Assembly (NCBI GenBank): GCA_031261165.1
Contig: JAISJU010000109.1
Coordinates: 1-51,511 of the forward strand
Direction: 5' to 3'
From: Prevotellaceae bacterium
GTDB lineage: Bacteria > Bacteroidota > Bacteroidia > Bacteroidales > Paludibacteraceae
DNA: 51,511 nucleotides
Shown: positions 23,535 to 38,088 of the stretch, piece after piece
Layout of the letters: each line of letters opens with the position of its first letter
How positions within the stretch are numbered: the stretch's first letter is position 1
Notes under the pieces: model-generated
Told to the model about the DNA's origin: nothing
Seen by the model: the letters and a program-made list of their open reading frames with translations, nothing else
The model's database searches: none
Position numbers and translations under genes: made by a program

Positions 23535-24230
23535 ATGGCAACAAAAGAAAACAAACAAACCGTTCCCGCCACAAGTTCTGACAAAGAACTGCGGGCAATG
23601 CAAAACACGCAGGCGGAAGAGATGCAGCAAATTATCGCCGAAGTGGAAGATGCGCTGAAAAAATTCGGCGTGTACGAAAATACTTATTCGCCTGACGAGC
23701 GTATGCGCCTGGTGAGCGTGGGTATAAAGAATTTCGGTTTTTTGCAGACGGCTTATGACAGCGCACAGATGAATCCCGCGCTTGTGCCTTCGTTTCTGGA
23801 TATGGGTATGTATGCCTGGACTATTGACGACTACCGGCGCAAAAGGGCGTTGTTTGACCTCTTGCAGAATTTTATGCGCATAGCGCAGGATTCGATGATA
23901 GCGAGCGGAGATGAGGCGTATCATTATTCGCTGATGTATTACAACTATGTGCGCGAGGCTGCCCGTCAGAAAGTGGCGGTAGCGGAGGGGGTATATAATC
24001 AATTGTCCCCTTATTTCAAGAAAAGCAAAAGCAAAAAAGGCAATGAAGAGCCTACGCAGGCACAGGTGGAACGCGATGTACGCGCACTGCTGCACGGCAC
24101 AAAAGACGGTAAGATTGTGATAGAAAACGAAACGCCTGCCGCACTCGCGGGCAAGCATAAGGTGCTCGACGAGATACAAACGGGACACGTTGAAGGGAAA
24201 ATTACTTCCGAATTTGCGGAAAAAGAATGA
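23535..24230 (+). CDS. Hypothetical helical protein
   Basis: A 231-aa protein without a signal peptide. It is almost wholly alpha-helical by composition, with a basic stretch near residue 160 (KKSKSKKG) and an acidic tail. I do not recognise the family. It follows the lipoprotein gene by 90 nt on the same strand and ends directly before a tandem repeat array. Confidence 0.65.
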   Translation: MATKENKQTVPATSSDKELRAMQNTQAEEMQQIIAEVEDALKKFGVYENTYSPDERMRLVSVGIKNFGFLQTAYDSAQMNPALVPSFLDMGMYAWTIDDYRRKRALFDLLQNFMRIAQDSMIASGDEAYHYSLMYYNYVREAARQKVAVAEGVYNQLSPYFKKSKSKKGNEEPTQAQVERDVRALLHGTKDGKIVIENETPAALAGKHKVLDEIQTGHVEGKITSEFAEKE

Positions 24231-24388
24231 AAATGATGGCTTCGTAAGCGAAAATTTTGGCTTGCGAAGCCATAATTATGACTTCGCGAGTCATAATTAT
24301 GACCTGAGGGGGTCATAATTTTGGCTTGCGAAGTCATAATTTTGGCTCGCGAAGTCATAATTATGACCTGAGGGGGTCATAATTTTGA
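24231..24388. repeat. Tandem array of 21-22 bp palindromic repeats
   Basis: About seven diverged copies of a unit built from TCATAATTATGAC (itself nearly palindromic) and a second inverted core such as CTTCGCGAAG or CCTGAGGGGG. The units alternate between TAATTATGAC and TAATTTTGGC forms. They are contiguous with no spacers, so this is not a CRISPR array. It starts at the stop codon of the preceding gene and ends 70 nt before the CYTH gene. Confidence 0.8.
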
Positions 24389-32863: not shown

Positions 32864-32893
32864 AGTTTTTTCTGATATTTTTTTGCAGAAATG

Positions 32894-32924
32894 TTGCGGA
32901 ATTAAATTTTTAGCACTACTTTTG
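32894..32924 (+). promoter_or_regulatory. Upstream promoter toward tRNA-Asn
   Basis: TTG at 32894-32896, a 20-nt spacer and TACTTTTG at 32917-32924 match the Bacteroidota consensus. It lies about 130 nt before the tRNA gene. Confidence 0.5.
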
Positions 32925-32976
32925 CCGCCGGAAATCGAAAAAAACACGAATTTTCTGATATTTTTTAAGAAAATGC

Positions 32977-33007
32977 TTGTGCAATTTATTTTTTAGCATT
33001 ACCTTTG
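32977..33007 (+). promoter_or_regulatory. Proximal promoter of tRNA-Asn
   Basis: TTG at 32977-32979, a 20-nt spacer and TACCTTTG at 33000-33007, 46 nt before the mature tRNA. This is one of the clearest promoters in the window. Confidence 0.7.
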
Positions 33008-33053
33008 CACCCGCAAATTGAAAGAAAAACCTTTTTTTGATTTCAAAAAACAT

Positions 33054-36356: not shown

Positions 36357-36911
36357 TTATTTTACTTCACTACCCGCCGAAACTGCCTTTTCGGGCTGAA
36401 CGGCAACAAGTTGTCCGTCAGCATTTTCGGCAAACAGAATCATTCCCTGCGACTCAATACCTTTCAACTTTCGCGGTGCAAGGTTGGCAATAAAACACAG
36501 CTGTTTGCCAACCAAATCTTCCGGCTGATAATACTTTGCAATGCCCGAAACAATCGTGCGCTCCCCTACCCCATCGTCTATTTTCAGTTCGAGCAGTTTG
36601 TCGGCTTTCGGCACTTTTGCACAGGCTTTTACTGTGCCTACGCGGATGTCCAATTTCTCAAAATCTGGAAATTCGATGGTTGGTTTTATCGGTACGGGCT
36701 GATGGTTTTTTACCTCGTTTGCTTTTTTGGTGTCGAGGAGTTTTTGAATTTGCGCCTCAACCGCACCGTTTTCTATTTTTTCAAAAAGAAGTCCGACTTC
36801 ACCGAGTTGATGTCCTGCGGGGAGTAAATCGGTTTTACCGAAATCGTTCCATTTCAAACCGTCATTCCTGCGAAAGCAGGAATCCCCCGAAATATTAGAG
36901 TTATTATTCAT
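36357..36911 (-). CDS. Detached C-terminal (tRNA-binding) part of methionyl-tRNA synthetase
   Basis: A 184-aa protein. Residues 1-18 come from a repeat-derived leader ([18 protein letters not shown]). From [18 protein letters not shown] onward it matches the part of a Bacteroidota MetG that follows the catalytic core. From about residue 85 it forms a Trbp111/EMAP-type OB-fold with [20 protein letters not shown] and [13 protein letters not shown]. It should dimerise and bind tRNA. Separated from the core gene by two unrelated genes, it has its own ATG. It may still act in trans, like free Trbp111 proteins. Confidence 0.85.
36861..36888. repeat. REP-type hairpin at the junction of the split metG
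   Basis: ATTCCTGC-GAAA-GCAGGAAT (36864-36883), an 8-bp stem with a GAAA tetraloop inside GTCATTCCTGCGAAAGCAGG, is a widespread dispersed repeat. On the minus strand it codes the CFRRNDG peptide of the detached MetG part. It sits within about 10 nt of where the MetG similarity resumes. Confidence 0.75.
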
Positions 36912-36921
36912 GTTTTTATTA

Positions 36922-38088
36922 TTACTGTTTATTTTTGGCTGTCAAAAAACTGCAAAATTCATTCAACGAGCGTTGCAAAACGTCTTTGGGTATCAGTTGG
37001 CGTTCGTATTCGGCAATCATTGTCGGGCTGAGGCTGCGGCTCATCGCATATTCCACCACGCTGTGGTCGGCTTCCTGACAAAGCAAAATGCCGATGCTCG
37101 GATTTTCGTTACTGCGGCGCACATCGCGGTCGAGGGCTTCGAGGTAAAATTCGAGTTGCCCCATATATTCGGGTTTGAATTTGCTGGTTTTCAGTTCAAT
37201 GGCAACCAAACACTGCAAACCTCGGTGAAAAAACAGTAAATCGACTTTGAAAGTAGAATTGCCCACTTGCAATGGATATTCTTTGTCGTAAAAAAGAAAA
37301 TCCTTGACGAGTTCCAGCACAAACTCTTTCATATTGTCCAAAATACCGATTTGTAAGCGTCTTTCGGAGTGTTTTTGCGGCAGTCCGAGAAAATCCACAA
37401 AAATCGTATCTTTCAACATCGGTGCTGCCTGCGGATAAATTTCCTTCAAACCTTTGGAAAGATTGTGCTTGTCGCCCATCAGCGAAGCAAAAGTGTGGTT
37501 TTTGAGGCAACGGCGCAGTTCCTTTATATTTAACCGCTCTTTGAAACAATACAACACATAAAAGATTCTTTCTTCGATTGTTTTACAAGTGTTTATTATC
37601 TCGAAATGATTAGATAAAGTGGTTAAATTCAAAAAGTTAGGAATTTGTGCAGATTCAATCTGCACAAATTGTCCGGATTCAATTTGGACAATTTCAGAAC
37701 TTTCAATTTGTGCAGTCACTGCCTGCACAATTTCGGCATCTTCAATTTGTGCAGTTTCTGATTGCACAATTTGCTTGAGTTTCAATTTTTCTGATAACTC
37801 TAAAAATTCCATCGAAGAATAAGTTTCATAAAGTGAAACCATATTGTAAATATTCCTTCGACTGTACCCGCGCAAAGTCGGGTCTTGCGAGCGCAGGTAT
37901 TCCGAAAGTTGCATAACGGTTTTGCTACCCCACGCAGCATTTTTGAGCCGCGCCGAAACATACGCGCCCACTTCCCACGCCGACTGCAAATTCTCGTTAT
38001 TCACCGCCTGCAAAGCACGCGAGCGACGCAACGAAATCAATTCGTGTACCTGCTGAAATTCTTGTATGGCTAATTTATTGGTATCCAT
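36922..38088 (-). CDS. DUF1016 (YhcG-type) PDDEXK nuclease-like protein
   Basis: A 388-aa protein. The N-terminal DUF1016 domain has [28 protein letters not shown] and [18 protein letters not shown] middle repeat region (about residues 105-150) is built of EIVQ...AQIE units. The C-terminal nuclease-like domain has [33 protein letters not shown], a D...ExK pattern. Such proteins are common in mobile and defence regions, with unproven function. The ATG at 38088 is used; a longer frame upstream is unlikely. It lies inside the split metG locus. Confidence 0.85.
37642..37775. repeat. Chain of palindromic coding repeats in the DUF1016 gene
   Basis: Four consecutive palindromes of 29-31 bp. The first is perfect (AATTTGTGCAGAT-TCA-ATCTGCACAAATT, 37642-37670). 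The second (37666-37694) overlaps it; two more follow, centred near 37,719 and 37,757. They encode about 13-residue repeats (EIVQ...TAQIE). Each unit can form a hairpin in DNA or RNA. Confidence 0.85.

Follow-up and report, generated by a model that had tools for sequence, protein, structure and literature searches.

A DUF1016/YhcG gene with four in-frame palindromes

The window analysed here, a 51,511-nt stretch of DNA from a Prevotellaceae bacterium, carries on its minus strand a gene that is read from an ATG at 38088 and encodes a 388-aa protein; the list of open reading frames holds a longer frame, with a TTG start upstream of this ATG. The protein matches the Pfam domains DUF1016_N (E 6.8e-20; 72 bits, cut-off 32.8; residues 14-201) and YhcG_C (E 4.1e-48; 163.6 bits, cut-off 32.5), both over the Pfam cut-offs, as well as the PADLOC model PDC-S02 (E 1.3e-106). 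Judged by these matches, it is a DUF1016/YhcG protein according to Pfam and a candidate defence protein, PDC-S02, according to PADLOC, and the gene is a member of the DUF1016/YhcG family (PF17761, PF06250, COG4804, PADLOC PDC-S02). The features of the gene are as follows.

36922..38088, minus strand: DUF1016/YhcG gene, 388 aa (Pfam, PADLOC), ATG at 38088
37819..37869, minus strand: putative recognition helix 1, residues 74-90, with predicted base readers R77, R78, Y81 and N82
37745..37771, unstranded: dyad unit 1, 27 bp, 9/13 pairs, encodes IVQSETAQI
37706..37732, unstranded: dyad unit 2, 27 bp, 11/13 pairs, encodes IVQAVTAQI
37667..37693, unstranded: dyad unit 3, 27 bp, 11/13 pairs, GTC/GGA variant, encodes IVQIESGQF
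37643..37669, unstranded: dyad unit 4, 27 bp, 13/13 pairs, encodes FVQIESAQI
37654..37764, minus strand: palindrome-bearing loop, residues 109-145, pLDDT below 50, predicted disordered (AlphaFold2)
37501..37527, minus strand: putative recognition helix 2, residues 188-196, with predicted base readers I188 and K189
36976..37419, minus strand: PD-(D/E)XK nuclease domain, residues 224-371 (Pfam)

An initial annotation of this DNA had described four coding palindromes in phase with the reading frame, a description that was borne out. In the 27-bp register defined by the gene family, the four units hold a mean of 10.0 of 12 pairs, as opposed to 6.2 after synonymous recoding with the gene's own codons, and the highest mean among 2000 recoded samples was 8.25. 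The palindromes are real and lie far beyond codon chance. Their location, given in the annotation as between the DUF1016 and the nuclease-like domains, has to be corrected: the units fall inside the Pfam match to DUF1016_N.

Looking for the same palindromes elsewhere in the genome, as the annotation had advised, returned none within three mismatches outside the window gene. At this threshold, the window site occurs at three places in the 3.04-Mb genome, all within its own gene—the variant unit at 37667-37693 departs further from the search pattern than the other three—and each of the three genes of this genome that were searched has site copies in itself only. A 14-base short form of the site was found at 129 places per strand with up to three mismatches (42 for a reversed control), and with at most one mismatch at three places in the window gene and one elsewhere (C76:566).

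The window harbors further repeats. Near the start of the tRNA_bind ORF at 36357-36911 lies the palindrome ATTCCTGCGAAAGCAGGAAT (36864-36883), a dispersed repeat with six places in the genome within two mismatches, translated SCFRRND. A tandem array of short AT-rich palindromes of the TTATGACTTCGCGAGTCATAA type, with a 64-bp period, spans 24229-24387, and an 83-bp tandem duplication (1.9 copies, 79% alike) occupies 32868-33028.

A 27-bp dyad across the DUF1016/YhcG family

In nearly every DUF1016/YhcG gene examined, from Bacteroidota, E. coli, phage contigs and plasmids of other phyla, one to seven in-frame 27-bp dyads lie in the same DUF1016_N loop. The window palindromes are part of this family-spanning pattern and not a local oddity, in correction of the earlier view. 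The expected variation in linker length was found, relatives at 70-82% identity having between two and about seven units in this loop, and homologues have palindromic DNA with both arms changed, rather than the same peptide on DNA that lacks the symmetry. For 68 units from Bacteroidales relatives, aligned without gaps, we counted 10.1 of 12 pairs compared with 6.2 (sd 0.16) in synonymous samples, and the same units still exceeded a per-position codon-make-up shuffle (9.43, sd 0.075); this set leaves out four off-register Pedobacter matches, with which the 72 units give 9.65 versus 6.10.

Palindromes also occupy this position in the DUF1016 genes of the genome and in E. coli K-12 yhcG, each with a sequence of its own. 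For 122 genes drawn from every source, we compared the best palindrome of the linker with 100 in-gene codon shuffles: in 82 genes no more than 5 shuffles reached it, as compared to 3 of 122 when the same measure was applied to a control stretch in the nuclease domain. Coding-phase dyads in the 122 genes numbered 197 in the linker versus 7 in the control stretch; 197 of 227 linker dyads are centred on codon position 1. An enlarged set comprised 282 genes, 273 of which could be aligned at the helix. A unit of at least 9/12 pairs in coding phase is present in 242 of these 273, and the first unit is centred 22, 25 or 26 codons past the helix start in 174 genes. The remaining 31 aligned genes have no unit at this level; the site may have been lost there, or a different one may be in use. 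Unit-less DUF1016 genes often have a helix of the type GFSxxSLKNMRxFYEEW. Selecting units by a protein motif before [PS]W gave a weak signal (5.3 versus 4.0 of 12) and was not used: linkers are not alike across subfamilies, and for many of 49 genes the motif led to the wrong window.

Scanning the rest of each fetched locus (141 genes) for near-copies of the unit gave a mean best match of 16.0 of 27, as against 15.3 for shuffled arms, so most genes are without a second site nearby. Within 250-bp gene flanks, 25 dyads had at least 11/13 pairs (4 in shuffled flanks), eight of them supplied by E. coli. A few flank dyads lie near the start codon and resemble the gene's own unit (L065, L240 and, less so, L134), and most genes have no flank dyad. 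In genome G389, the two sites found are one in the gene and one about 49 bp before its start. As to gene neighborhoods, a DUF1016 gene on a Methylomonas plasmid (L345:2935-4092) lies between the BREX genes pglX and pglZ, and the copies in L343, L346, L347 and L348 adjoin methyltransferases or integrases.

The consensus dyad reads 5'-AATT-N9-N-N9'-AATT-3', that is, 27 bp with N9 varying between genes and the arms being self-complementary. In 117 units from 74 genes, selected by their pairing at offsets 4-9 alone, the offsets held back from the choice (1, 2, 3 and 10-13) were paired beyond synonymous expectation, with z from 4.9 to 10.7. The outer pairing had z of 6.5-8.3 at offsets 10-13, 0.7 at offset 14 and 0.3 at offset 15. 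Pairing through offset 13 and none beyond marks the element as a 27-bp dyad with one central base and AATT flanks. Offset 1, next to the single central base, is paired as well (z 8.4 and 6.7). This symmetry up to the very centre, together with the sharp end at 13 bp on either side, means that a double-stranded dimer site fits better than a hairpin. Wobble in the mRNA is not favoured either: among 197 units there were 44 G-U versus 116 A-C mismatches.

Where the left base at offset 9 is A, symmetry would force a TAA stop, and 40 of 43 such units leave the position unpaired (left G, 6/129; left C, 9/103; left T, 20/55), implying that DNA symmetry yields to the reading frame where required. Of the dual selection proposed initially, the part stands that has DNA symmetry and peptide both constrained; the hairpins do not, given the paired offset 1 and the absence of a preference for G-U.

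Covariation of two helices with the palindrome bases

To relate protein and site, we computed, for 290 protein columns, the mutual information with the bases of the half-site, giving relatives less weight (195 genes, effective number 112) and excluding columns coded by or next to the palindromes. A helix residue was the top column of all 290 for offsets 9, 8, 7, 5, 3 and 1; at offset 2, column 56 came first and column 71 second. In helix 1 (motif G[FY]SxRNLxxM), columns 3, 4, 7 and 8 covary with offsets 9, 7, 8 and 5, respectively, and in helix 2 (motif GWSVRELERQ), columns 70 and 71 covary with offsets 3 and 2/1. As a guard against shared ancestry, we compared 97 disjoint pairs of relatives, paired by the nuclease half only. 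Here, six of the nine offsets (9, 8, 7, 3, 2 and 1) had a helix residue in first place among 289 columns: column 7 led at offsets 9 and 8, column 4 at offset 7, column 70 at offset 3 and column 71 at offsets 2 and 1. Helix column 8 ranked second at offset 5, and offsets 6 and 4 had no clear helix partner in either the 290-column scan or the 97 pairs.

G7 occurs in 83 of 90 genes with Arg at column 4 and in 8 of 105 without it; in 77 disjoint pairs differing in Arg versus non-Arg at this column, G7 was found in 72 Arg members and 7 of the others. At column 7, Lys or Arg goes mostly with G8, Trp or Tyr with T8 and Glu with C8, and Arg or Lys at column 3 goes with G9. Lys or Arg at columns 8 and 70 accompanies C at offsets 5 and 3, with G on the other strand. 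To judge from the aligned sequences, the covariation is chemically sensible, pairing Arg and Lys with G on either strand. As these flanking-helix residues covary with the palindrome bases, the encoded protein is the likeliest reader of the symmetry.

We then turned to 14 records of plasmids and phages, retrieved once this residue-to-base rule had been noted, which span Pseudomonadota, Actinomycetota, Cyanobacteriota, Deinococcota, Bacteroidota, a deltaproteobacterium and the Wolbachia phage WO (2 of the 14 were read from the annotated start, and the best window was taken where several scored). All 14 have a dyad with 8-12 of 12 pairs, 23-26 codons past the helix start. Arg at column 4 went with G7 in 8/8 and non-Arg with another base in 6/6; Tyr, Gln or Asn at column 8 went with A5 in 10/10, and Arg at column 8 with C5 in only 1/4. 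Leave-one-cluster-out prediction had only seven clusters to work with, three of which consist of a single gene, too few to be informative; the largest gain came from column 4, for offset 7, whereas for columns 7 and 8 a constant guess of the most frequent base would have done better. In the window protein, R77, R78, Y81 and N82 predict G9, G7, T8 and A5, and 15 of 16 bases in the four left arms match, the sole mismatch being C7 in the unit at 37667-37693; since the window's relatives were in the covariation tables, this agreement is consistency and not a test. Units within one gene differ at offsets 7-9 (CGC, CCG and TGG in E. coli; GTG and GTC in the window).

Two E. coli alleles offer a natural comparison. 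The yhcG genes of K-12 and L145 differ at 0-3 bases per 60 over most of their length and at 24, 17, 20, 8 and 6 bases per 60 across nt 240-540, the region of helix 1 and the palindromes. Allele 1, present in most strains fetched (K-12 itself has two further changes), combines GFSAKNLRQM with AATTCGCCAGACAGTGTCTGGCGAATT; allele 2 (L145) combines GFSTRNLWQF with AATTGTGCAGACACTGTCTGCACAATT. The helix/site pairs are AKNLR with CGC versus TRNLW with GTG, a change predicted by the residue-to-base code (Lys to Arg with C7 to G7; Arg to Trp with G8 to T8). On sequence comparison, the two alleles have swapped helix and palindrome together. An O157 strain is without units 2 and 3 owing to an in-frame 78-bp deletion.

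All eight E. coli genes of the set carry a further dyad 27 bp after the yhcG stop, with half-sites CTGCAGACA or CTCCAGACA, whose alleles differ on both arms together (CTGCAG versus CTCCAG). The dyad lies between the convergent genes yhcG and nanQ, for example at the following positions.

L111:6970-6996: post-stop dyad
L145:1628-1654: post-stop dyad
L146:1628-1654: post-stop dyad
L149:1443-1469: post-stop dyad

In L142, L143, L144, L147, L151 and L152, yhcG is broken by insertion sequences, truncation or a frameshifting deletion over palindromes 2 and 3, so the gene is dispensable in those strains. Partial matches ending near nt 385-406 had raised domain exchange at the E. coli palindromes as a candidate, which was dropped, the cases fetched being IS insertions or truncations. 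A search for E. coli yhcG in viral contigs gave no match.

Structure prediction places the palindromes between the two helices. In the AlphaFold2 model of the window protein, helices span residues 77-90 and 188-196, and the disordered loop 109-145 sits between them. For a short-linker relative, L205, the model is better (pLDDT 83.5) and has helices 51-63/72-84 and 113-126/130-138, with the covarying residues at the starts of helices 72-84 and 130-138. Its residues 24-147 align with DNA-binding domains of Noc and ParB, at Z values that are modest for helical domains: 7nfu_B (Z 9.4, rmsd 3.9, 100 residues), 6y93_A, which is Noc with its site (Z 9.1, rmsd 3.5, 103 residues), 7bnr_B (Z 9.0, rmsd 2.8, 100 residues) and 6s6h_A (Z 7.6, rmsd 2.8, 94 residues). 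ParB structures were matched with the L205 model only; none is among the 50 matches listed for the window-protein model. Residues 188-307 of L205 match the EndoMS/NucS-type repair endonuclease 2vld_A (Z 11.4, rmsd 2.5, 108 residues), and window residues 238-359 match EndoMS 5gke_A (Z 9.3, rmsd 3.4, 98 residues aligned). Of the predicted nuclease residues, D283 and K300 are invariant and E298 nearly so in 31 aligned sequences. A sequence search of solved structures gave nothing useful. The models hence predict a ParB/Noc-like DNA-binding domain, with modest ParB-like Z scores, joined to an EndoMS/NucS-like nuclease. Because there is no ParB Pfam match—only YhcG_C and DUF1016_N matched at E ≤ 0.001—and a nuclease is present instead, we do not file the protein as a ParB.

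A proposed self-addressed site and its possible purpose

Taking the shape of the dyad and the covariation together, we consider it probable (roughly 0.8) that each 27-bp palindrome is a double-stranded site for the protein of its own gene, bound as a dimer. DUF1016_N would act as a ParB/Noc-like DNA-binding domain with two DNA-reading helices, helix 1 reading the outer bases (offsets 9, 8, 7 and 5) and helix 2 the inner ones (3, 2 and 1). We infer both binding and dimerisation; a dimer would put one DUF1016_N domain on each half-site.

parS can lie inside the parB/spo0J gene. The arrangement proposed here would resemble ParB-parS and Noc-NBS in its predicted DNA-binding fold and two-fold symmetric palindrome. 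In the ParB-parS crystals described (PMC7383237), R173 of ParB bonds guanine 1, the outer base, whilst guanine -6 of the half-site is contacted in Noc by the Arg that corresponds to ParB position 201; the DUF1016 protein would likewise have two reading regions per monomer, with Arg on an outer guanine and a second helix on an inner base. Unlike the 16-bp ParB/Noc site, the DUF1016 site is a 27-bp, odd-centred and AATT-flanked one; its sequence is gene-specific, it sits in the loop between the two reading helices, and the protein is fused to a nuclease. The passages on DUF1016/YhcG in the 2005 description of the family (PMC1189080) place the predicted PD-(D/E)XK domain near YraN-like resolvases, describe the N domain as alpha-helical with no fold known, and are silent on a binding site. 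A search of open-licence PMC text for palindromes or binding sites of the family found nothing in print. Co-diverging repressor-operator pairs, as described for plasmid RepA autorepression (PMC4492784), similarly prefer their own palindrome and keep separate specificities within a cell; their operator lies upstream, however, whereas the DUF1016 site lies within the gene and is itself translated into a piece of the protein.

Several other origins of the symmetry were weighed. The helix residues might touch the loop residues encoded by the palindromes, making the DNA pattern secondary to protein-protein coevolution; palindrome bases are codons, and such contacts would also yield covariation. We regard this as very improbable, for the loop is predicted to be disordered in the window protein, the left-arm base at offset 7 is a third codon position (GTG/GTC), the pattern tracks base chemistry over several positions, and the DNA symmetry goes beyond what the peptide needs. 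Hairpins in mRNA or single-stranded DNA, acting in translation pausing, message stability or as a cruciform with the protein not reading the palindromes, could form from 13-bp inverted-repeat arms located between structured protein parts. We reject this explanation as very improbable in view of the pairing at offset 1, impossible in a hairpin, and the lack of favoured G-U; it also leaves the covariation with two helices unexplained. That both arms change together between alleles would also be expected of a mutational process, one in which template switching corrects near-palindromes and so maintains their symmetry without any selection; such a process predicts no covariation with distant codons, however, and, with one place kept in very distant genes and a sharp 27-bp edge, its probability is slight in the extreme. 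Rickettsia palindromic elements, as described in PMC4316617, are palindromes in frame inside genes, and in-frame insertion of a mobile element of this kind would suit units that are short, coding and variable in copy number. Those elements are dispersed, unlike the DUF1016 dyads, which are confined to one family and one place and differ in sequence between genes at that constant place; with no near-identical copies in unrelated genes of this genome (up to three mismatches), an insertion of this type is rejected, with practically nil probability.

The remaining alternative keeps the same binding and changes its purpose: the protein would cut at its site, as a self-limiting, homing-like or kin-excluding nuclease directed against incoming DNA of the same allele. 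We hold such cutting to be unlikely on the whole, with some weight left to kin-DNA or self-limiting cleavage because the catalytic residues are kept. The EndoMS-like predicted fold, the location of the genes on phages and plasmids (in some cases next to integrases, methyltransferases or BREX genes), the PADLOC listing as candidate defence and the diverse specificity of paralogues all speak for cleavage. Against it, a resident gene would be cut unless protected, and no methylase adjoins E. coli yhcG; moreover, the sites just before the start or after the stop in some genes suit regulation equally or better.

Returning to the palindromes as binding sites of their own protein, their likeliest purpose is autoregulation of a potentially harmful nuclease via an operator inside its gene, a suggestion we make tentatively and at slightly less than even odds. 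Binding within the gene would limit the expression of a nuclease that mobile DNA often carries, the operator would thereby travel with the specificity, and in some genes a further site just upstream or downstream may assist. Since one gene encodes both helices and, in the loop between them, bears the site, specificity and target would be inherited or exchanged as one cassette, and paralogues in one genome could therefore keep separate targets; several paralogues per genome with separate sites suggest an avoidance of cross-talk.

On a broader view, it seems somewhat likely that DUF1016 is a large family of self-addressed nucleases with the own gene as main genomic target: many orthogonal nucleases, several per genome, which would gain their specificity through exchange of the helix-site cassette and each regulate or attack only DNA of its own allele. 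No target was known for this family, which is widespread, is represented in E. coli K-12 and figures among listed candidate phage defences. From the covariation come a predicted target for each gene and a residue-to-base code for an uncharacterised family, directly testable with the existing E. coli alleles. It would be a rare natural case in which binding specificity and site are physically one cassette, so that changes of specificity over evolution could be followed in genome sequences, and the family may offer many separate DNA-binding domains with predictable sites.
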